From positions 1 through 36,054 of the forward strand of contig CANKBS010000033.1 in NCBI GenBank assembly GCA_947480015.1: a stretch of 36,054 bases of DNA. The letters run 5' to 3'. Shown in pieces: positions 3,954-34,437 of the stretch. This DNA is from Sphingobacteriaceae bacterium (GTDB lineage: Bacteria > Bacteroidota > Bacteroidia > B-17B0 > Aurantibacillaceae). The position numbers were made by a program, and so were the translations under genes. The notes under the pieces are model-generated. The model saw only the letters and a list, made by a program, of their open reading frames with translations. It did no database searches and was not told the DNA's origin. The stretch's first letter is position 1, and each line of letters begins with the position of its first letter.

Positions 3954-6900
3954 CTATCGCGTCAGAGTCACTTGCCCTGTTAAAACTTTTTGTTCTCCAG
4001 AATTACTCGACACTTCTATCTTCCAAACATACACATCTTGCTTTGCTTCCTCACCTTTGTATGTGCCATCCCATCCAGTTTCTGTACTGTTCGTTTCAAA
4101 AAGTTTTGCGCCCCAACGATCGAAAACAGAGAGTGTATAAAATTTTGTACCTCTTAAAATTGGCAGGAAAATATCGTTGAGTTCATCACCATTTGGTGTG
4201 AAAGCATTCGGCACATAAATATTAAAATCAGATTCTACTTTAATTGTTTTTACAATGGTATCTGTACAGCCGTATTTGTTTTGCACGATAAGGGCCACTG
4301 GGTAAAGACCCGCATCCTGAAAGAAGTACGAGGTATTTTCATTACTTGATTTAAATCCATTATTCGCAATAAAGAACCAGTTCCATTTATTTTGAAAATC
4401 TCCTGTAGAATTGTTAGTGAAAATCACGGTCTCTAAACTTTCCACTGGTTTTTCTGGTAAGAATTTAAAATCTGCTTTTGGAACAGGGTAAGCGTTGACA
4501 ATAAATGTAACTATGTTTACACAATTTGTATTGGTGTCCTGTAAATGTCCTGTGATAAGGTATTCGCCGGGCACCGTAAATAAATGAGAAAATTTATTTC
4601 CTCTATAAGAACTGTTTTCTATTGTCCAATTTGTTAATGGGCTAGTATGTGAATCAAAAACAAATTCAGAAGTAAATGGCACACAATTATATTTACTGCT
4701 CGGAATTAAATTACCATAAGGCAGATCGTCTACAATTAAATCTGCCGAGGTTTTATTTTTACACTTATTTCCGTTAATCACTTTTAAAATATAAGTGCCG
4801 CCGTAAGTTAGGCTGCTGGCAACAAAACTCACCGTCTGCCCTGCATACAATAAACTATTCGGACCAGTCCAATTATAGCTATCGCCTCCTTTACCTATTA
4901 AAGTGATCACTTCGTTTAAACACAATCTTGGTCTTGGTAAAATAATCTCCGGCTTCGGAAGCGGTATGATGGAAACCGTTACCATAGCAATTTGGGTGCA
5001 GGAATTTAAACTAGTCATGACCTGATAGGTCTGTTGGCTAACAGGGCCGGCGCTCACGACTGCTCCGGTTGTGGTGTTTAGCGCTAAGTTCGGTGACCAA
5101 TAAAAAGAAGAACCATTACCCAATGCTGTTAAATTTATTTTATCACCCAGACAAATACTTGGATTGATTGGTGTGATACTTACTGTTGGTAAAGGGTTGA
5201 CTGTGATGGTACTCGTTTGCGTTCCTGAGTTACAACCTAAACTTCCTCCTATGACCGAATACACAGAAGTCACCGTAGGACTGGCAATAGTGCTTGGTCC
5301 TGTATAAGTTGATAAACCCGGAGTACCCGGACCCCAAGTATAAGAACTTGCTCCGGAGCTTGTATACGTAAATGATTTACCTGCGCATATAACTGGCGTT
5401 GGAGAAGTGACTGTTAAACTCGGATTAGGAATCACATTAAAAGTTACCATCTTCACTGCGGTACAAAACCCGTTTGATCCAGTGAGTGTGGCTGTTGCCA
5501 GCCCAGCAGTATAAGGTGGCAAGGTACTTAAGGGACTTGATGGACCGTTTGGATTATTCGTAAAAATATGTTGAGGCGTTGCTAAGGTATAGGTCGCGGC
5601 ACCTCCGGCTGTTAAGGTTATACTATTAGGCGAACCGTTGAAAGCCTGAGCACACAATGTGCCATTACCACTTAAATTACTTGTTAAACTTGGTGGAGGA
5701 ATTACAGAAACATTTACAACCGCCGTATTAGAACAATTTTGCGGACTCAATACTTTTAAAGAATAATTTCCCGAAGCAAGAACTGAAGGATTATTTATAA
5801 AAGGATTTTGAAGTGTTGAAGAAAAGTTTTGGGCACCATTCCATAAATATGTTGCCCCTGCAACCGAAGATGCATTTAAATTTAAAGTCTGAGAAGTACA
5901 AACCGTGGCACCTGCTATACTTAAACTAGGTGTAGGATTAACGGTTAAGGTTTGACTGGTACTGGCCGTACAGCCGTTTACCGAGGTGACCGTTAAATTA
6001 TAAACACCTGAATACAATGGTGTAGCACCGGTAATAACCGGACTCTGTAAGTTAGAAACAAAACTTTGTGGACCATCAAAATTAAAAAGCACACCGCCAC
6101 TCGCATTCAATTGTAAATTTTGTCCGTTACAGCGTGGTGAGTTGCTTGTAAAAATAGGCGTTGGGGTTGGATACAAAATGATTGTTGGATAAGCCACCAA
6201 AGTACAACCCAAGGCAGAACCAATGACGGTATATTGTGTATTTACCAGGGGCGAAGCCGTAAAACTTGCTCCCGTGAGGCTGAGCGTAGTCGAAGCCCAG
6301 GTGTAAGAACTTGCTCCCAAAGCGGTCATAGTGCCAACCGTTAGTGGACAAATAGAAGCGTTTGAAACAGTTAAAACAGGATTTGGAATAAAATCTACTG
6401 CTATGGTATTGCTCGTTAAACAATTATTGGCATCTGTACTGTTAAGTGTGTAAACATAGGTGCCCGCTATAAACTCCGTGACGGTGTTTGTATTTATGGG
6501 CTGACCGTTTGTCCAGGTATAGGTGTAACTTGCCGTTCCTCCACTATTGGTGCCTGTAAGCGAAATGCCGGTGCCTGCACATGTTGTGGGGGTGTTAGCT
6601 GAGAGCGATAAATTTAATGCAGGTGGCTGTGTAATAAAAAAACTCTGATTAATCTGACAACCCGTGAGAGCATCTGTCACATTCACGCTCCAAATACCGG
6701 CGCTCAAACCAGTTGTAAAAGCTGTTGTGTATGTACTAATGCCATTTGTCCATGAATAACTTTGGTTGCCGGAGCCACCGTTAAGATTAATAATGCTCGC
6801 AGATCCCGTGTAAATACCATTGCACTTGAGACTGTCGCTATTAAATAAACTACCTGTAAGCGGCACTATTGGCACAAATGTTATTGTGGTGCTGTAACTA

Positions 6901-8549
6901 ATAGTATTGGGAATTGAAGAAACCAGTAATGTATAAACTCCCGGACTTAAGCCAATAGCAACGGAGCCAGTTTGCGCCGTTGGTTGCCAAGTGTAACTGT
7001 ATGGCCCTCCATTATTAATGGCTGTTACGGTGGCTGAACCGAGAGTGGCGCACGTGATCGAAGTGCTGCTAACTGATATACACGGTTGATTAAAGATAAT
7101 GACCTGCTTTAAAGTATCTGGCGGACGACACTGATAATAAAAAATAAGCTGTGTTGTGTATGTGCCAAGATTTGCAAAAAGGTGGGTTGGCATTGCCAAG
7201 GTAGAGGAGTTATTGGGACCGGATGCTAAATCTCCAAAATTCCACAAAATATTTGTTATTGAAAAGCCCGTCGTAGAACTACTATTAATATAATTTGCAG
7301 GAGCCGCAAAAAAAGTATTATGGCAAATTGGCGAGTTATTAACTGTATACGTAAAGGGTGGAACTAAAACAGGGGGGGATGAAATAAAATTCGGTAAGCC
7401 CATTAAAGAGCTGGTTAGTCCTAGACTTTGACCTATGTCAATATAACTGCAACCCGGCCCCGCAATATTTGGGTTATTAATCACACTAAGAAAATTACTA
7501 AATTCTCTTGCAATATAAATCTTTCCATTTGGTGCAAGCTGCATAGATCCGCATTTAGGATTGATTGTATGGGTTACAACGATATACAGTGAAGCAACAA
7601 TTGCAGTGTTTGAACCCGCAGATAAATCCCACTGCATGATACGACCTGTAAGTGGAACAACGGCATTGTACACCCTTGATCCGTATAACTTGGATCCGTC
7701 AGGAGAAAATTCCAGACCGTATCCATACACAATAGTTAGGCCGCTGTATGGCATTAAAGCCAGTGAATTTGATATAACTCCCGAAGTATTATCAAAATCA
7801 TATAATTCAAAGTTGTTTCCATTAGAAATATTACTTCCCTGGAAATAGTTAGTGAATGCAAGTTTTTTTCCATTTGGTGAAATTTTCATACAACCTGTAA
7901 AAGCGCCAAAAGAGTTAACGATGTTACTTCCAGGTGACACAACTGCAGTTGTATTAATTCCTGCTGAAGTCAACAAATAGGCTTTGAAATTCATACTTAT
8001 ACTAGCGGTTGGCGTAGAATATTCCCTCATAATAATCCAATAATCTAAGCCGTTACAATGTTTCGTGCCGGTTATTTTTTCAAAACAGAATGAACCATTT
8101 ATACTTACATTTTTAGTTGTTACCGAACCTTGGCCACTAGCAAGGCTCATATCAACGACCGTATAACGAAATCCTGCTCCTCCAAGAGCACCATCAACCG
8201 TAAATACATAATACAGGTTAGAATTTCCCGGTTGCTTTACGATTAAGCTACCCTGAGCTGGGGTGCCGCCGCCAAATAAACCTGTACCGTTAGCCATTAC
8301 TGTATTAACTTGAGTCCAGATTGTAATGCCATCCGTATAAAATAAAAGATTCCCTGCTGAATTGGCAATCGTGGAGCAACCTTCTTGCACATTCATGGCG
8401 CTACTAACCAAAATAGTTGGTGGGCTAGTCATGAAATCGAGCCCGGCATTAATACCGAAACACCATTTTTTATTTTCGTTTTGGGCATAGGAATAAGAGC
8501 TTAAGATCATTAAGTAAAAAAAGAATAAATATTTAATTGTTTTGTTCAA
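3954..8549 (-). CDS. Large secreted T9SS cargo with PKD/Ig-like repeats and gliding-motility C-terminal domain
   Basis: A 1531-residue surface protein. Residues 1-22 form a Sec signal peptide, cut before QNENKKW. Residues of about 24-400 form a propeller-like region (repeated LLFYTDG, SPNGKKLAF, SPDGSKLYG and APNGKIYIAR strands). A PKD-type unit follows (NFGD...GTYTTQL). The middle has at least seven degenerate Ig/PKD-like repeats of about 75-85 residues, each with one early Cys (SICPLT, RCNGQ, TVCTSQ, TLCAQA, VICAGK, SICLGD, RLCLNE). Two further PKD-like units lead to the last 92 residues (VPNAFTPNGDELND, FDRWGAKLFET, GWDGTYKG, KQDVYVWKI), the T9SS type B / gliding-motility-associated C-terminal domain. 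The protein is therefore exported and anchored at or released from the surface. The start is TTG: the signal peptide needs it and the next Met (14) falls inside the hydrophobic core. The N-terminal half is paralogous to the gene at 32548-34437. The ligand or partner is unknown. Confidence 0.85.
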   Translation of the reverse strand: MNKTIKYLFFFYLMILSSYSYAQNENKKWCFGINAGLDFMTSPPTILVSSAMNVQEGCSTIANSAGNLLFYTDGITIWTQVNTVMANGTGLFGGGTPAQGSLIVKQPGNSNLYYVFTVDGALGGAGFRYTVVDMSLASGQGSVTTKNVSINGSFCFEKITGTKHCNGLDYWIIMREYSTPTASISMNFKAYLLTSAGINTTAVVSPGSNIVNSFGAFTGCMKISPNGKKLAFTNYFQGSNISNGNNFELYDFDNTSGVISNSLALMPYSGLTIVYGYGLEFSPDGSKLYGSRVYNAVVPLTGRIMQWDLSAGSNTAIVASLYIVVTHTINPKCGSMQLAPNGKIYIAREFSNFLSVINNPNIAGPGCSYIDIGQSLGLTSSLMGLPNFISSPPVLVPPFTYTVNNSPICHNTFFAAPANYINSSSTTGFSITNILWNFGDLASGPNNSSTLAMPTHLFANLGTYTTQLIFYYQCRPPDTLKQVIIFNQPCISVSSTSITCATLGSATVTAINNGGPYSYTWQPTAQTGSVAIGLSPGVYTLLVSSIPNTISYSTTITFVPIVPLTGSLFNSDSLKCNGIYTGSASIINLNGGSGNQSYSWTNGISTYTTAFTTGLSAGIWSVNVTDALTGCQINQSFFITQPPALNLSLSANTPTTCAGTGISLTGTNSGGTASYTYTWTNGQPINTNTVTEFIAGTYVYTLNSTDANNCLTSNTIAVDFIPNPVLTVSNASICPLTVGTMTALGASSYTWASTTLSLTGASFTASPLVNTQYTVIGSALGCTLVAYPTIILYPTPTPIFTSNSPRCNGQNLQLNASGGVLFNFDGPQSFVSNLQSPVITGATPLYSGVYNLTVTSVNGCTASTSQTLTVNPTPSLSIAGATVCTSQTLNLNASSVAGATYLWNGAQNFSSTLQNPFINNPSVLASGNYSLKVLSPQNCSNTAVVNVSVIPPPSLTSNLSGNGTLCAQAFNGSPNSITLTAGGAATYTLATPQHIFTNNPNGPSSPLSTLPPYTAGLATATLTGSNGFCTAVKMVTFNVIPNPSLTVTSPTPVICAGKSFTYTSSGASSYTWGPGTPGLSTYTGPSTIASPTVTSVYSVIGGSLGCNSGTQTSTITVNPLPTVSITPINPSICLGDKINLTALGNGSSFYWSPNLALNTTTGAVVSAGPVSQQTYQVMTSLNSCTQIAMVTVSIIPLPKPEIILPRPRLCLNEVITLIGKGGDSYNWTGPNSLLYAGQTVSFVASSLTYGGTYILKVINGNKCKNKTSADLIVDDLPYGNLIPSSKYNCVPFTSEFVFDSHTSPLTNWTIENSSYRGNKFSHLFTVPGEYLITGHLQDTNTNCVNIVTFIVNAYPVPKADFKFLPEKPVESLETVIFTNNSTGDFQNKWNWFFIANNGFKSSNENTSYFFQDAGLYPVALIVQNKYGCTDTIVKTIKVESDFNIYVPNAFTPNGDELNDIFLPILRGTKFYTLSVFDRWGAKLFETNSTETGWDGTYKGEEAKQDVYVWKIEVSSNSGEQKVLTGQVTLTR
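6280..6295. repeat. REP-like core inside coding sequence
   Basis: CTGAGCGTAGTCGAAG matches the core of the palindromic element at 3701-3752. It is read through in frame as part of an Ig-like repeat (residues WASTTLSLTG around it), so it does not interrupt the gene. Confidence 0.4.
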
Positions 8550-26054: not shown

Positions 26055-26459
26055 TTATTTTTTCTTAGCCGGTGCTGCAACAGCTCCTGCTTTTGGACGT
26101 TTCGTCCCGTATTTTGATCTTTGTTGTTTACGACCTTCAACACCAGCGGTATCGAGGCTTCCACGCACAATGTGATAACGCACACCCGGTAAGTCTTTTA
26201 CACGACCACCACGCACCAAAACGATGGAGTGCTCTTGCAAGTTATGACCTTCACCCGGAATATAGGCGATAATCTCTTGTTTGTTAGTTAAACGAACCTT
26301 AGCAACTTTACGCATGGCAGAGTTAGGTTTCTTGGGTGTAGTTGTGTACACTTTGGTACATACACCACGGCGTTGTGGACATGAATCCAAAGCGGCCGAT
26401 TTACTTTTGTTGGTCGGTTTAGTGCGACCTTTTCTTACTAATTGCGATATTGTAGGCAT
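26055..26459 (-). CDS. rpsL: 30S ribosomal protein S12
   Basis: Decoding-centre protein. It has 134 residues: [14 protein letters not shown] start, [17 protein letters not shown] with the Lys pair at 43-44 and [11 protein letters not shown] with Lys88, the positions where streptomycin-resistance changes arise; both look wild type. Asp89 is the site methylthiolated in other bacteria. It is the first gene of the cluster, about 60 bases after a strong promoter. Confidence 0.98.
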
Positions 26460-26812: not shown

Positions 26813-26854
26813 AAAAAAAGGGCAATATCTTCATGTATGAAAATATTGCCCTTT
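26813..26854 (-). terminator. Terminator of the small lipoprotein locus
   Basis: A 12-bp stem AAAGGGCAATAT / ATATTGCCCTTT (26817-26828 with 26843-26854). The inner TTCAT/ATGAA extends the hairpin. On the minus strand a run of seven U follows (bases 26819-26813). It ends transcription of the genes at 26932-27863. Confidence 0.82.
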
Positions 26855-26931
26855 AATTTCGTCTAAATCGGGTCCTAGCGCCCGTTTTAATTAGCTTTTG
26901 ATGAGATCGGTAGCGTTACTAGTTTTGATTG

Positions 26932-27045
26932 CTAAACTTCTAGATTTTTACTGTAATTGAGTTTATTTTGAATGGTTTTTAATGAAGGTTCTGTTTGTTC
27001 CAACAAATTATGCGTTGGCTCTTTTTCGGTTTTTCCACAAAGCAT
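26932..27045 (-). pseudogene. Truncated second copy of the small ORF at 27678-27863
   Basis: A 37-residue reading frame, MLCGKTEKEPTHNLLEQTEP then SLKTIQNKLNYSKNLEV. From KTEKEP onward it matches the 61-residue ORF at 27678-27863 in about 30 of 34 positions, then stops where the other copy continues for 12 more residues. The DNA identity over 90 bp is about 92% with no indels. It could be a truncated remnant or a functional short paralog. It is the last ORF before the terminator at 26813. Confidence 0.55.
26945..27034. repeat. 90-bp direct repeat, copy 1
   Basis: Collinear with 27733-27822 at an offset of 788 bp, with about 7 mismatches and no gaps. Most substitutions cluster in one 11-base patch. 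It encodes the conserved part of the duplicated small ORF. Confidence 0.9.
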
Positions 27046-27052
27046 TAATAGA

Positions 27053-27334
27053 TTATTGTAAACTGCAATTGTTATCCCGTGTATAGGTGTAATACGTACT
27101 TTCACCCTCGGATTTAGTATGAATGCAGGCTCTGTTGGCCGTCTTTAAAGACGCATCAGCCAAAGTCACGCTATAGTCATTCACACTGCCAGCCGGGGCT
27201 GTCATGCCAGCAGGTGGTGTCGGACTGGTTTTCATCTTGTAAACCGTCACCGTTTTACAAGAACACACGCGGTCCTTATTGCATGAGGCAAATGCCAGTC
27301 CTAAAACGGCAATCATTACTACTAATTTTTTCAT
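27053..27334 (-). CDS. Small cysteine-patterned lipoprotein (copy A)
   Basis: A 93-residue product: signal residues 1-17 and lipobox FASC with Cys18. The mature start is CNKDRVCSC, followed by a Pro-rich loop (SPTPPAGMTAPAG) and two later Cys (in RACIHT and NNCSLQ). The four non-anchor Cys (24, 26, and two near the end) match those of its neighbour at 27355-27567, which suggests two disulfides in the periplasm or at the surface. No known family recognised. It is 20 bases downstream of the neighbour, so they share a transcript and probably arose by tandem duplication. Confidence 0.75.
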   Translation of the reverse strand: MKKLVVMIAVLGLAFASCNKDRVCSCKTVTVYKMKTSPTPPAGMTAPAGSVNDYSVTLADASLKTANRACIHTKSEGESTYYTYTRDNNCSLQ

Positions 27335-27354
27335 TTCTTAATACGTTTTTAAGA

Positions 27355-27567
27355 TTAGTCTAACTTGCAGGTAATTGTTTCTGTTCCACCTTTACCATCA
27401 TCATATTTCATTGAAACACAATTGGCTTTTGCTTGGCCGTTGGTAACCCCTACTAGGGTGGTTATGTCGGGCTTTCCGTTGGAACCAGTGCAGGTACACA
27501 CTCTGTCTTTGGCGCACGATGTGGCGCAAAGGGAAGCAATTGCGGCAATAAATAACATTTTTTTCAT
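27355..27567 (-). CDS. Small cysteine-patterned lipoprotein (copy B)
   Basis: A 70-residue product: MKKMLFIAAIASLCATSC, with lipobox Cys18, then AKDRVCTC and two later Cys (in KANCVSM and TITCKLD). The pattern C-x-K-D-R-V-C-x-C ... C ... C is shared with copy A. The longer in-frame start at 27681 is rejected for two reasons: its first 38 residues would bury the signal peptide, and a TATCTTTG -7 box (27599-27592) falls inside that extension. The start at 27567 follows this box by about 25 bases. Function unknown. Confidence 0.78.
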   Translation of the reverse strand: MKKMLFIAAIASLCATSCAKDRVCTCTGSNGKPDITTLVGVTNGQAKANCVSMKYDDGKGGTETITCKLD

Positions 27568-27591
27568 AGATTGTAGGTTTTGAGGTTTTTT

Positions 27592-27599
27592 CAAAGATA
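27592..27599 (-). promoter_or_regulatory. -7 box before the lipoprotein pair
   Basis: TATCTTTG on the minus strand is a perfect -7 element about 25 bases before the start at 27567. The upstream -33 match is poor (CTG at 27620-27618, 18-base spacer). Confidence 0.45.
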
Positions 27600-27677
27600 A
27601 AACTTCTTTTTTAATTACAGCGCATTCTTCAAATGAAGTTAGCTGATTTCTAATAAAACACATGCCGACTAATTCGT

Positions 27678-27863
27678 TCAACTCTTAATGAACTCAATGT
27701 CATTAATTAGTGTAGAACGTTTGATTTCGAGGTTTTTACTGTAATTCAGAATAGTCTGAATGGTTTTTAATGAAGGTTCTGCATGTTCCAACAAATTATG
27801 CGTTGGCTCTTTTTCGGTTTTTTTTGCAGTAAGATCAAGATCGGGAGTAAATGTTTGTGTCAT
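27678..27863 (-). CDS. Small protein of unknown function, duplicated nearby
   Basis: A 61-residue polar product without signal peptide or membrane segment. The middle (KTEKEPTHNLLEHAEPSLKT) is highly conserved in the truncated copy at 26932-27045. The C-terminal part (about 30-61) is predicted helical and Lys/Ile-rich. No family recognised. It is the first gene of the small locus that continues into the lipoprotein pair. The start is ATG at 27863. Conservation of the protein sequence in the second copy supports that it is, or recently was, translated. Confidence 0.55.
   Translation of the reverse strand: MTQTFTPDLDLTAKKTEKEPTHNLLEHAEPSLKTIQTILNYSKNLEIKRSTLINDIEFIKS
27733..27822. repeat. 90-bp direct repeat, copy 2
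   Basis: Partner of 26945-27034. It lies inside the 61-residue ORF at 27678-27863. The two copies flank the lipoprotein pair. Confidence 0.9.
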
Positions 27864-28024
27864 AGGCTAATCATTATATCGTTTAAAGTTATAAATATAA
27901 CGTATCATGAGCCTGGATATTGTATTCAAGTTAAAAAAAACAGAAAACGGTTACAATTCCCTAAGTATCGCCTAACGCACTGATTGTCATTTTAATGAGA
28001 ATTTATTCACAAGTCTCTAAAACC

Positions 28025-28141: not shown

Positions 28142-29935
28142 TTACTTCTTACCGTCTAATTTATCTTTCAAATCAGATAAAGCAGAAATATCACCTAAAG
28201 TGGTTTTTTCCTGGTTATCTTTCACTTTTTTAACTGCTTTTTTACTGTCTTCAAAATCGGCCTTTTTAGTTGCTTTATCGGCACGTTTGGCTTCTTCTTT
28301 CACTTCTTCGTGTAAACGAGCGTGTGAAACAACAATACGCTTAGCATCTTTACTGAATTCAATTACTTTAAAATCCAATACTTCTTCAGCTTTTGCAGAG
28401 GTACCATCAACTTTGTTTAAGTGACGGGCAGGACAGAATCCTTCAACACCATAAGGTAAGCCAATTAAAGCACCTTTATCATTCACTGAGGTAACCGTAC
28501 CTTTGTGAATAGAATCGATGGTGAAAATGGTTTCGAATACATCCCAAGGGTTTTCTTCGATTTGTTTGTGGCCTAAGCTTAAACGACGGTTTTCGCCATC
28601 AATTTCTAATACCACTACTTCCATTTTCTCGCCTACTTTGCAGAATTCACTTGGATGTTTGATTTTTTTGCTCCATGACAAATCAGAAATATGAACTAAA
28701 CCATCCACGCCTTCTTCCAATTCAACAAACACACCAAAATTGGTGAAATTGCGAACGGTACCGGCATGTTTCGAACCTTTAGAATATTTCTCCATAATCA
28801 TGTTCCAAGGATCAGGAGTTAATTGTTTCATACCTAAACTCATTTTACGCTCTTCGCGGTCTAAGGTCAGGATGATACCTTCCACTTCATCTCCAATTTT
28901 CACAAACTCTTGTGCACTGCGTAAATGCTGACTCCAGCTCATTTCACTAACGTGAACTAAACCTTCAACACCCGGAGCGATTTCGATAAATGCGCCGTAA
29001 TCATTAATTACAACTACTTTACCTTTGATTTTATCTCCAATTTTCACTTCAGCACTCAAAGCTTCCCAAGGGTGCGGTGTTAATTGTTTTAAACCTAAAG
29101 CAATACGTTTTTTATCATCATCAAATTCAAGAATTACAACTTGAATTTTCTCATCTAATTTAACGATCTCTTCAGGGTGGTTAATACGACCCCAAGATAA
29201 ATCGGTGATGTGAATTAAACCGTCAACACCACCTAAATCGATGAACACGCCATAAGAAGTAATGTTTTTTACAGTACCTTCTAATACTTGTCCTTTTTCT
29301 AATTTAGAAATGATATCACGTTTTTGGCTTTCTAATTCAGCTTCAATTAAAGCTTTGTGAGAAACCACAACGTTTTTGAATTCGTTGTTGATTTTTACAA
29401 CTTTAAATTCCATTGTTTTACCAACGTACACATCGTAATCACGAATTGGTTTTACATCAATTTGTGAACCCGGTAAGAAAGCTTCAATACCAAATACATC
29501 AACGATTAAACCACCTTTCGTACGGCATTTAACAAAGCCCTTAATGATTTCATCATTTGCAAGGGCTTCGTTAACACGATCCCAGCTTTTTCCGGCACGT
29601 GCTTTTTTATGAGAGAGAACTAACTGACCTTGCAAATCTTCTGCCTGATCAATAAACACTTCGATCTTATCACCAACTTTTAAATCAGGATTGTAACGAA
29701 ACTCTGAAAGAGCCACCACACCATCTGATTTATAACCAATGTTAACAACCACTTCGCGGTTATTTTTAGCAACCACGACACCTTCAATAATCTGAAGATC
29801 AGCAATGGTACTTAATTTTTGAGAGTACAACTCATCCAACTTCTCTTTTTCTTCTGCTGAATAATTGTCTTGTTTTTTACCGATCGAATTCCAATCGAAA
29901 TCCGGATTTCCTGTTACCAGGGCTTTTTCTGCCAT
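28142..29935 (-). CDS. rpsA: 30S ribosomal protein S1
   Basis: mRNA-binding ribosomal protein with six S1 (OB-fold) repeats spread over about residues 40-540 of 597. The later four carry the classical ends, for example YGVFIDLGGVDGLIHITDLS, FGVFVELEEGVDGLVHISDL and the LSLGHKQIEENPWD linker. A Lys-rich, charged tail of about 50 residues follows. An in-frame TTG at 29956 would add seven residues, but the ATG at 29935 (MAEKALVTGNPDFDW) is the natural start. It is transcribed alone, with its own promoter (30026-30055) and tandem terminators. In Bacteroidota, which make little use of Shine-Dalgarno pairing, S1 is important for initiation. Confidence 0.96.
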   Translation of the reverse strand: MAEKALVTGNPDFDWNSIGKKQDNYSAEEKEKLDELYSQKLSTIADLQIIEGVVVAKNNREVVVNIGYKSDGVVALSEFRYNPDLKVGDKIEVFIDQAEDLQGQLVLSHKKARAGKSWDRVNEALANDEIIKGFVKCRTKGGLIVDVFGIEAFLPGSQIDVKPIRDYDVYVGKTMEFKVVKINNEFKNVVVSHKALIEAELESQKRDIISKLEKGQVLEGTVKNITSYGVFIDLGGVDGLIHITDLSWGRINHPEEIVKLDEKIQVVILEFDDDKKRIALGLKQLTPHPWEALSAEVKIGDKIKGKVVVINDYGAFIEIAPGVEGLVHVSEMSWSQHLRSAQEFVKIGDEVEGIILTLDREERKMSLGMKQLTPDPWNMIMEKYSKGSKHAGTVRNFTNFGVFVELEEGVDGLVHISDLSWSKKIKHPSEFCKVGEKMEVVVLEIDGENRRLSLGHKQIEENPWDVFETIFTIDSIHKGTVTSVNDKGALIGLPYGVEGFCPARHLNKVDGTSAKAEEVLDFKVIEFSKDAKRIVVSHARLHEEVKEEAKRADKATKKADFEDSKKAVKKVKDNQEKTTLGDISALSDLKDKLDGKK

Positions 29936-30284
29936 TCTATTTTTTAATTGTATCAAACCTCAGAGGCCGGTTTGAGTGATTAAACATTAATTTATTTTGT
30001 TTTAAGCCTCAGTTAAAACGGGGTACAAATATAGACAGAATAAAGGAAAGTACAGGAATGACTGTGATATTTTAAAGACTTGATAAATAAGGGGTTAAAA
30101 ATTTTAACAGAAAAGGTGAAATTTAGTTGATATGTGCCATTTTGATTGATTTTAGACTCTTGAACGGAAATATGACTAGTTAAGGTTTGGTATTTACGGA
30201 AATAATTTTGAAGCATTCTAAAAAGCTTTTAGAAATCTACAAATCGTAGCAAGACCCAGCAAAATAAAAATTTACCTTTAGAAA
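29936..30284. other. Divergent gap between rpsA and ruvB
   Basis: It holds the rpsA promoter on one side and a possible ruvB -7 box (TACCTTTA, 30273-30280, only 4 bases before the ATG) on the other. A perfect short palindrome, TCTAAAA-AGC-TTTTAGA, lies at 30217-30233. No credible ORF. Confidence 0.55.
30026..30055 (-). promoter_or_regulatory. rpsA promoter
   Basis: On the minus strand TATATTTG (30033-30026), with a weak -33 (CTG at 30055-30053, 19-base spacer), then TACCCCG. The C-run after the -7 box parallels the rpsL and rpsH promoters. Confidence 0.5.
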
Positions 30285-32547: not shown

Positions 32548-34437
32548 CTAGTCAATTTTAATTACCCTTATGGCGCTTGAATGATTTTCAAATTCAGGCC
32601 TCATAAAATAAATACCATTATCAAGATACCTTATATCTAGTGTATTCTCACCCTCAACCAGCGCTATTTTTTGCTTAATGTTTCCCAGAACATTATAAAT
32701 AACTACCGAAATCGGTTTAGTACTTTTTACCGTCAAAAAACCTACCACGGGATTAGGGTATATCACTAACTGGTCTGCTATGAAGCCTGGAGGCACCATG
32801 CCTGTGCATTTCGAGACACTTAAAGAGGCAATAGTGCTTGCTGAACAACCATTAACTGTATTTGTTCCTACCACTGTATAGGAAGTGGAAATCGTCGGTG
32901 AAACACTTACGGTTACTTTGTTGGTGCCATTACTCCAGCTATACAGATTTGCTCCTGCAGCCGTTATGGTAACTGTTTGCCCGGCGCAAATGGAAAAAGT
33001 TCCTGTAACATTTATTGTCGGAGAAACTGTGGTAATATTTACCGTTTGTTTTATAGTGTCAGTTCCGCAACTGTAATTTAACAACAGCATTGCAGTATAT
33101 GTACCAATGGATGAATAATAATGCACTGGATTGGAAACGCTTGAGCTATTGGTTGACCCGGAGAGAGGATCACCAAAAATCCAATTTATGCCAACAACAG
33201 AATATCCTGTAGCGGAACAAGTGTTAACAACCGTGTTAATCGCTACCGAAGGTGGTGTAAACGAAACGGTCTGACAACTTATGGAATAAGTATAAGGAGC
33301 AGGTTGAGTAACATAAATAAAACCCGGAAGTCCCAACTTATTTGCATTTGGAGCAATAGATTGTCCTACATCAACATAATTGCAACCCATAGCTAACGTA
33401 TTTGGGCTATTAATTACACCGAGGTCTTGTTGGTTGATTCGTGCAATGTATATTTTACCGTTTGTTGCCAACTGCATAGCATATAGGTCAGCGATTGTTG
33501 TAGTACCAACTGTAAGTTGCGAAGCAATTATGGCTGTATTTGAGCCGGCACAAAGGTTCCATTGTGTAATAACCCCATTAAAGAAGAAACTCGAAGATCC
33601 ATATACTTTGGTTCCGTCAATCGAAAACTCGCAGCCATAAGCATAGTATTGACTATTGGAAAGCAGAACAGAATTTGATATTACACCCGTTAACCGATCA
33701 AAATCGTATAATTCAAAACCCATTTCCTGTATTGCTGTGATAATTTTTTTGCCATTCGGTGATGCTTTCATACAGCCAATATTATTTCCGCCGCTGTATA
33801 TTGTTCCGGCTGCAGAAATAACCGGCACTGGATTTATACCGGCAGAAGTAATGAGATAACATCGAAAATTATTTGACATATCATCGTGAGTAATCACCCA
33901 TATATCCACCCCATTACAATGCTTTACTGCTGTCATTTTTTCAGCGCTGGGCGTAAACAAAAGCGTGTTTTTTGAGGTTACAGAACCCATACCGGCTGCG
34001 AGGCTCATATCAACTATCGAATATCGTAAACCAAGTGGCCCACCAAAAGCATCAAGTGTAAAAATATAATAAATTGGAGCGCTGCCTGGTTGTTTCACCA
34101 CATTTGCCGATTGACTAGTGGAGGTATTTCCAAACAAACCGGTTCCGTTAGACATTACCAAATGAGCCTGATTCCAAACTGTTACCCCATCTGTATAAAA
34201 TAATAAATTCCCGAAAGAATCGGCAATGCTTGCGCACCCTTCTGCCGTATTCATAGCTCCATTGGTAATAATCGTGGGAGGGTTAGTCATAAAGGCAAGC
34301 CCCGCTCCTTGACCAAAATACCATTTTTTATTTTCGTTTTGCGAAAACAGTAATAGGCCATTCATAAAAAATGATACAAGGATGAATAATCGAAACGGTT
34401 TCGTTTTTGATTTAATTAAGCAATTGGTTTTTAACAT
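32548..34437 (-). CDS. Secreted T9SS cargo, paralog of the 1531-residue protein, type A sorting domain
   Basis: A 629-residue secreted protein. The signal peptide is about 1-32, cut before QNENKKWYFG. Residues 33-420 match the N-terminal region of the 3954-8549 protein block by block: NENKKW, PPTI, NLLFYTDG, VMSNGTGLFG, VKQPG, VDMSLA, KHCNG, LITSAGIN, CMKASPNGKK, YDFD, GVISNS, NGKIYIAR. A PKD-like unit follows (INWIFGDPLSGS, then IGTYTAMLLL) and one Ig-like repeat (ICAGQTVTITAAG). The last 80 or so residues (LVIYPNPVVGFLTVKS, VVIYNVLGNIKQ, LDNGIYFMR) are a T9SS type A sorting domain, not the type B domain of its paralog. Function unknown; surface-exposed or released. Confidence 0.85.
   Translation of the reverse strand: MLKTNCLIKSKTKPFRLFILVSFFMNGLLLFSQNENKKWYFGQGAGLAFMTNPPTIITNGAMNTAEGCASIADSFGNLLFYTDGVTVWNQAHLVMSNGTGLFGNTSTSQSANVVKQPGSAPIYYIFTLDAFGGPLGLRYSIVDMSLAAGMGSVTSKNTLLFTPSAEKMTAVKHCNGVDIWVITHDDMSNNFRCYLITSAGINPVPVISAAGTIYSGGNNIGCMKASPNGKKIITAIQEMGFELYDFDRLTGVISNSVLLSNSQYYAYGCEFSIDGTKVYGSSSFFFNGVITQWNLCAGSNTAIIASQLTVGTTTIADLYAMQLATNGKIYIARINQQDLGVINSPNTLAMGCNYVDVGQSIAPNANKLGLPGFIYVTQPAPYTYSISCQTVSFTPPSVAINTVVNTCSATGYSVVGINWIFGDPLSGSTNSSSVSNPVHYYSSIGTYTAMLLLNYSCGTDTIKQTVNITTVSPTINVTGTFSICAGQTVTITAAGANLYSWSNGTNKVTVSVSPTISTSYTVVGTNTVNGCSASTIASLSVSKCTGMVPPGFIADQLVIYPNPVVGFLTVKSTKPISVVIYNVLGNIKQKIALVEGENTLDIRYLDNGIYFMRPEFENHSSAIRVIKID

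Follow-up and report, generated by a model that had tools for sequence, protein, structure and literature searches.

A 61-residue protein family that shares a promoter element with T9SS genes of Bacteroidota, and its candidate role as a minimal anti-sigma factor

In Porphyromonas gingivalis, the ECF sigma factor SigP (PGN_0274) drives genes for components of the type IX secretion system (T9SS), and PorX and PorY belong to the same circuit (PMC4800418, PMC8265659, PMC7712824). The portions of these papers on which we draw also describe an interaction of PorX with SigP (PMC4800418), present sigP as auto-regulated, and list possible anti-sigma genes downstream of four other ECF sigma factors, with none given for SigP (PMC7712824). 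In Flavobacterium psychrophilum, a study of transcript starts describes SM6, an ECF-type motif that has CGT in its -10 box and precedes PorU, GldN and further genes; the annotated sigma/anti-sigma pair THC0290_1774/1773 is suggested for it, and the shares of the seven ECF sigma factors are left open (PMC9723704). The anti-sigma factor NepR is itself transcribed from sigma-dependent promoters in a circuit with a response regulator, and canonical EcfG promoters carry CGTT at -10 (PMC8103513). In the class I anti-sigma domain (ASDI), helix 4, the last, is described as binding the sigma-2 domain and likely blocking contact with the polymerase, and CnrY as a two-helix class II anti-sigma factor (PMC7406223). 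How PorX and an ECF sigma factor turn on type IX secretion is an open question, as is what restrains that sigma factor; for the latter role, the 61-residue family reported here is a specific, widespread and very small candidate. Among the papers listed in our literature searches, no title describes such a small sigma partner, although one may still have been published.

The window, the whole stretch of 36,054 nucleotides that was analyzed, lies on contig C33 of a genome of 3.77 Mb in 66 contigs that its relatives place in the Bacteroidota (G000; G-, L- and C-numbers denote genomes, fetched loci and contigs). The region around the locus holds ribosomal protein genes. Between two of them, which by their sequences we take to be rpsA and rpsL, the minus strand carries a 61-codon ORF, genes for two lipoproteins and a partial, broken ORF copy, and the group ends in a single strong hairpin followed by a T run (Table 1). 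The initial annotation had pointed out this array of a 61-residue ORF, two lipoproteins and a partial ORF copy under one terminator, and all of these features were confirmed. No Rfam family reached the gathering score between 26400 and 28200, and a scan for the sigma-70 consensus, which is uninformative in this phylum, returned 1 site compared to a shuffled mean of 5.4. Elsewhere in the window, at 3954-8549 and 32548-34437 (-), two large, mutually related secreted proteins are encoded, the C-terminal ends of which we take to resemble T9SS sorting domains.

Table 1. Features of the window between and including the two flanking ribosomal protein genes.
Feature	Position	Strand	Remarks
rpsA	28142-29956	-	flanking gene, named from its sequence
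Two-box promoter-like element ACAATA-N15-CGTTAT	27897-27923	-	perfect, 33 nt before ATG of the 61-aa ORF
Conserved 61-aa ORF for a small protein, a candidate minimal anti-sigma factor	27678-27863	-	
Lipoprotein A, 70 aa, CAKDRVCTC, tandemly duplicated family, probably bystander	27355-27567	-	
Lipoprotein B, 93 aa, CNKDRVCSC, follows A in the A-B doublet, probably bystander	27053-27334	-	
Broken partial copy of the 61-aa ORF	26891-27034	-	no start, no promoter, in-frame stop, frame change
Intrinsic-terminator-like hairpin, then T run	26817-26854	-	-24.6 kcal/mol, z -9.7
rpsL	26055-26459	-	flanking gene, named from its sequence

The ORF family was found in 68 of the 87 genomes of the window's family (E <= 0.1). 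In an alignment of 24 of its sequences (A1), T6, P30, L39 and L45 were invariant, M1, S31, I38, N40, S42, K43, S50 and the last residue, S61, were nearly so, and the conserved core spanned approximately residues 29-48 (AEPSxxTIxxILNYSKNLEV). The median dN/dS was 0.37 over 189 pairs with dS between 0.2 and 2, with every pair below 1; summed over pairs, the ratio was 0.20 for residues 29-48, 0.71 for the first 28 residues and 0.47 for the last 13 (one ORF cut by a contig end, L029, was omitted from these and the motif counts). By its substitution pattern, the 61-aa ORF is therefore a coding gene under selection. The initial annotation had raised selection on the ORF as one possibility, which these ratios bear out; it had also held that, failing a recurrent pairing with lipoproteins, the ORF would be non-coding repeat DNA, a rule that breaks down here, as the pairing is absent from relatives and the ORF still behaves as coding.

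The protein matched no Pfam or NCBIfam family above cut-off, two Pfam matches at E 0.1 being judged to be chance. PHROGs returned nothing at E <= 0.1 for the 61-aa ORF or lipoprotein A, and a phage origin was rejected since the lone match, a spanin-like one to residues 2-47 of lipoprotein B (E 0.071), was likewise judged to be chance. By eye, the 61-residue protein has neither a signal peptide nor a transmembrane stretch, and its AlphaFold model is poor (pLDDT 62), with one predicted helix (32-41) and two short strands. The word GCCT (27864-27867) directly abuts the ATG of the ORF, as it does in the 28 full-length relatives listed (L016-L044), with GCCG in its place in L035-L037, and the word recurs in some homologues of family f22. 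It does not stand at Shine-Dalgarno distance and is perhaps a site of translational control.

We propose that the two boxes upstream of the ORF, ACAATA and CGTTAT, are the -35 and -10 boxes of an ECF-sigma promoter. The element was present 22-59 nt before the ATG in all 29 family members, window included, when at most 2 mismatches were allowed, and in 28 of them when at most 1 was, whereas the controls gave a mean of 0.52 for 50 shuffles, 0 for the reversed pattern and 0/11 for rpsL. A gap of 15 scored highest, and hits at gaps of 12, 17 and 18 were attributed to the repeated AATA. Because the element was derived from these same ORFs, the figure of 29/29 is not an independent test, and the tests on other loci are those that count. 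Outside the window's family, the element preceded 25 of 27 homologues (shuffled 0.50, reversed 0).

In the window's own genome, 34 sites matched with at most 1 mismatch compared to 27 for the reversed pattern; the total thus says little, and the signal lies in position. Among the 30 of these sites that had loci and were examined, five lay 9-36 nt upstream of PorU, PorX, PorW/SprE, PorV2 and PorZ. These names come from NCBIfam, where PorU and PorZ, being partial sequences, stayed under the cut-off for whole proteins (E 2.5e-72 and 5.5e-60); this genome's complete PorU passed it. Across the genus, a longer pattern gave 45 sites versus 14 for the control, and 16 of the 30 sites with loci were the ORF itself, while the others included PorQ (assigned by NCBIfam in L105 and L132 and by eye in L120) and PorG (by NCBIfam in L107, by eye in L125). 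Of the 87 family genomes, 83 have PorX and 83 have PorU; in new loci the element occurred with at most 2 mismatches before PorU in 22 of 30 (shuffled 0.72, reversed 4) and before PorX in 10 of 30 (shuffled 0.60, reversed 3), many PorX sites with 3 mismatches retaining ACAATA and CGT. Since the element is common to the ORF and to PorU, PorX, PorW, PorV2 and PorZ, the ORF belongs to the T9SS regulon as this element defines it. The two boxes can in this way help to identify members of the regulon where expression data are lacking. Two further own-genome sites, L078 (G000:C39:26020-26046) and L084 (G000:C3:38214-38240), with 0 and 1 mismatch, respectively, stand directly before proteins without a family match above cut-off, which are candidate new members of the T9SS regulon.

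A search of 296 genomes of the phylum with the A1 profile gave matches in 30, own genome included, and 27 of the 29 matching genomes outside it were examined (L159 and L161 were left out). In 26 of these 27, the homologue lay directly downstream of one conserved ECF sigma gene, at a gap of 34-88 nt or, in L158, overlapping it; the lone exception, L152, stands behind a gene that by eye is subtilase-like. The sigma factor itself was detected in 142 of the 296 phylum genomes (E <= 1e-50) and in 72 of the 87 family genomes (E <= 1e-45). Its counterpart in the own genome (G000:C15:8514-9101; 54% identity, E 1.7e-56, the next ECF factor at 5.5e-17) has sigma-70 regions 2 and 4, and no SigP-specific model was among its best 25 NCBIfam matches. 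Approached from the sigma side, 25 of the 30 best-scoring phylum loci had the small ORF no more than 500 nt away, and 19 of the 25 genomes are also among the 26 above. A further 60 phylum sigma loci, classified by eye, comprised 14 with a short homologue, 15 with a long partner that was aligned, 12 with another long frame and 19 with none, so the pairing is not universal; an automatic pattern had found 9 of the 60, one of which, L324, was a long protein and probably a chance hit.

In the window's family, no small ORF lay within 500 nt of the sigma gene in any of 30 loci (L261 being without downstream sequence), and in G005, G011, G015 and G016 the two genes are on one contig approximately 19-30 kb apart. 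As judged from these loci, the small gene of this family is separate from the sigma gene and has kept its promoter. While the downstream check covered all 30 loci, the upstream check parsed 19 of them, and no element was present upstream of the sigma gene in these, the best candidates having 3-5 mismatches. Among the 72 family genomes with a sigma match, 14 lacked the ORF, namely every one of the 7 in which the sigma match was weak (in two of these the gene is cut by a contig end) and 7 in which it was good. The association between a weak sigma and absence of the ORF had p 5.9e-5, or 4.6e-4 when the cut genes were excluded, values that are too small because related genomes were counted as independent.

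Several other arrangements of the sigma gene were seen. In seven genomes of the genus (G005, G011, G012, G015, G016, G034 and G035), the sigma and PorX genes share a contig at a distance of approximately 12-14 kb. In G251, G255, G303 and G354, the T9SS-type sigma gene occurs as a tandem pair, approximately 1.1-1.2 kb from start to start, with no small partner behind the copy examined. In L307 (G389, family f36), a perfect element stands behind the sigma gene at bases 104-130 with no core-pattern small ORF of at least 30 aa, and this element is maybe a remnant.

The partners encoded downstream of this same sigma factor form a series of sizes: 181 to at least 227 aa (A5), 75-83 aa (A4), 64-65 aa (A6, of which one row, L152, is not sigma-adjacent) and 44-49 aa (A3). 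Some A5 frames were cut by the fetched stretch; of the 14 short homologues in the further sigma loci, 13 went into A4 or A6 and L282 was left out, and the 12 other long frames were not aligned. By eye, the long forms consist of a domain of approximately 75 residues followed by a hydrophobic stretch. Profile comparisons joined the 61-aa family to the sigma-adjacent small ORFs, with A1 matching A3 at E 5.6e-11, A4 at 1.9e-10 and A6 at 6.4e-10, compared to 0.34 and 0.66 for unrelated controls, and further joined A6 to A4 (E 5e-9) and A4 to A5 (E 2.2e-9 over 65 columns); a third unrelated control gave 0.99. The direct match of A1 to A5 was not significant (E 0.046), so the link to the long forms runs through the intermediates. 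The segment common to the short forms, PSxxTIxxILNYSK, sits at the end of the 75-residue domain, and we infer by analogy that it equals helix 4, the last, of the class I anti-sigma domain. Eight relatives, five long and three short, were compared with Pfam and matched no anti-sigma family, and the 61-aa form (P0001) matched no anti-sigma model in Pfam or NCBIfam above cut-off, so that it is not assigned to ASDI. Among sequences of solved structures, none matched the 61-aa or long forms at E <= 1, and six matches to the 75-83-aa form (best E 0.032) were judged to be chance. The series suggests that the partner shrank by steps from anti-sigma-like proteins of approximately 200 aa to a one-helix form, a putative reduction that can be followed across the phylum.

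The two lipoproteins (P0002 and P0003) share a lipobox-like cysteine followed by x-K-D-R-V-C-x-C, with cysteines at 18, 24, 26, 50 and 67 in A and at 18, 24, 26, 70 and 90 in B. Neither had a Pfam match at E <= 1, and the NCBIfam PG1828 lipoprotein model matched them only over approximately their first 21 residues, below cut-off. The family occurs in 55 of 100 relatives (E <= 0.01), often in several tandem copies; its members in L046-L074 are small lipoproteins with 4-5 conserved cysteines, often in arrays of two to four, and two of them that were searched had no Pfam match. A and B, distinguished by a simple Cys-His pattern, each had best counterparts of their own (L048, L046 and L047 for A; L047, L052 and L057 for B), and A-B doublets in the same order were present in L046, L047, L048, L050, L052, L055 and L057. 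Five of these seven genomes have an ORF match, on another contig in four and approximately 20 kb away in G031, and two have none. Ten relatives carry the ORF and rpsL at a single locus, and none of the ten has a lipoprotein of this kind in the gap, which measures 251-472 nt versus 1218 nt in the window. Because the doublet exists apart from the ORF in relatives, it must, by this comparison, have come into the present locus, next to or into a second ORF copy, and lipoproteins A and B are probably bystanders to the ORF.

These results contradict the local duplication of an ORF-plus-lipoprotein unit that the initial annotation had suggested, and the recurrent pairing that it proposed to look for was not seen in relatives. 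Its description of an undescribed small system held in so far as the ORF family is described in no library searched, although the ORF belongs with the T9SS sigma regulon and not with the lipoproteins; nothing pointed to the redox-related function that it had considered. No other element within 2 mismatches was present near the lipoproteins of the window, and 2 of 64 family members checked had one: L071 with 1 mismatch and L076 (G000:C15:55468-55494), a C-x-K-[DE]-x-x-C-x-C lipoprotein with a perfect ACAATA-N15-CGTTAT 15 nt before its start. Regulon membership of the lipoproteins was therefore not adopted, and these two cases are left as possible chance.

Aligned without gaps, the second ORF copy (26938-27034) and the intact ORF (27726-27822) agree at 88 of 97 bases, and all nine differences fall after the first 39 bases, which are identical. 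The match had E 1.2e-32 in the 3.77-Mb genome and the next best E 0.02, so the copy is neither a chance match nor a dispersed repeat, the latter being rejected with one other, broken, copy in the genome. It is without the promoter, the start and approximately the first 14 codons, meets a TAG after KNLEV, and has a tail (...DLIKS, stop) readable only in a different frame. Its missing promoter and start, in-frame TAG and frame change mark it as a pseudogene. A 57-aa GTG frame over the copy, which overlaps the end of lipoprotein B, was judged to be no gene.

Promoter sharing, the link with the sigma factor and the chain of intermediates to anti-sigma-like proteins are established at the level of the genome comparisons. 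From these we infer an anti-sigma activity, and our main and simplest reading, to which we give a probability of roughly 0.6, is that the product of the 61-aa ORF is a relic anti-sigma factor of one helix, by which a candidate SigP-type T9SS sigma factor is held under negative feedback. The protein would be a minimal, soluble relic acting on the ECF sigma factor encoded at G000:C15:8514-9101. When free, this sigma factor would transcribe the T9SS genes and the small gene from ACAATA-N15-CGTTAT promoters. The small protein would then bind it, probably at the sigma-2 domain and mainly via the predicted helix PSxxTIxxILNYSKNL, which would take the position of the final anti-sigma-domain helix, and the bound sigma factor would be kept off RNA polymerase, closing the negative feedback loop until it is released by a signal that possibly acts through PorX. 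A broader version, in which a widespread anti-sigma factor of the SigP-type sigma shrank from approximately 200 to 44-66 residues, left the sigma gene in one family and is displaced by PorX in a manner like that of PhyR-NepR-EcfG but independently reached, is tentative and on balance doubtful; if it is true, the long form would be a membrane protein and PorX would control the T9SS by a partner switch. To our knowledge, PorX is not known as a PhyR-type sigma mimic.

The same regulon membership and sigma linkage could also be expected if the protein aided the sigma factor as a positive or accessory partner, such as a co-activator, a stabilizer or an adaptor for PorX, and the loss of most of the anti-sigma-like domain from the short forms could mean that inhibition was lost with it. 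However, the gene fills the slot that anti-sigma-like genes occupy elsewhere and is joined to them by intermediates, and expression of an anti-sigma gene from its sigma factor's own promoter type is known for nepR-ecfG (PMC8103513); we consider a positive partner unlikely. The por genes use the same element and the small gene is separate from the sigma gene in the window's family, as would suit an effector or assembly factor of the T9SS that merely shares the promoter, with sigma adjacency as a by-product. Such a role is distinctly improbable given the 26 of 27 homologues that adjoin the sigma gene in other families and the protein's lack, by eye, of an export or membrane signal.

Two other accounts of the locus fare much worse. 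A single functional unit of ORF and lipoproteins, duplicated where it stands, might be supposed from their adjacency in this one genome, on the same strand and under one terminator, and from the perfect element before the L076 lipoprotein, yet the two are not adjacent in relatives and the element is near-absent from the lipoprotein family, the window's pair included, which makes a common unit very hard to credit. Non-coding repeat DNA, or a regulatory RNA, is just as implausible a nature for the ORF: its small size and the GCCT/GCCG word directly before the ATG in the listed family members would fit, and an SM6-promoted transcript of F. psychrophilum, Rfp11, is called a putative regulatory RNA (PMC9723704), but the reading frame is kept with dN/dS below 1 in every pair, no Rfam match reached the gathering score, and the only other copy in the genome is broken.

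The relic anti-sigma factor proposed here has counterparts, each in part, among known systems. As in the SigP/PorX/PorY circuit, an ECF-type element precedes T9SS genes, here PorU, PorX, PorW, PorV2 and PorZ, although it differs from the published SigP motif (PMC4800418), and, unlike sigP, which is described as auto-regulated (PMC7712824), the sigma gene was not under the element in 19 family loci. The element resembles SM6, compared by its description, in that both stand before T9SS genes and look like ECF-type promoters with CGT in the -10 box; where that study suggests one annotated pair, we propose one sigma factor together with a family of small partners. As with the class II anti-sigma factor NepR, a small soluble protein, and its EcfG/PhyR circuit, a sigma-type promoter stands on the small gene and a response regulator is proposed in the circuit, but the 61-aa protein has one conserved helix. 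In other families, though not in the window's, the small gene neighbors an ECF sigma gene, as those of ASDI proteins and CnrY do, and the segment that is retained closes the anti-sigma-like domain, the place at which helix 4 of ASDI binds sigma-2; unlike the four-helix ASDI, the 61-aa form is without the earlier helices, its low-confidence model predicting one.
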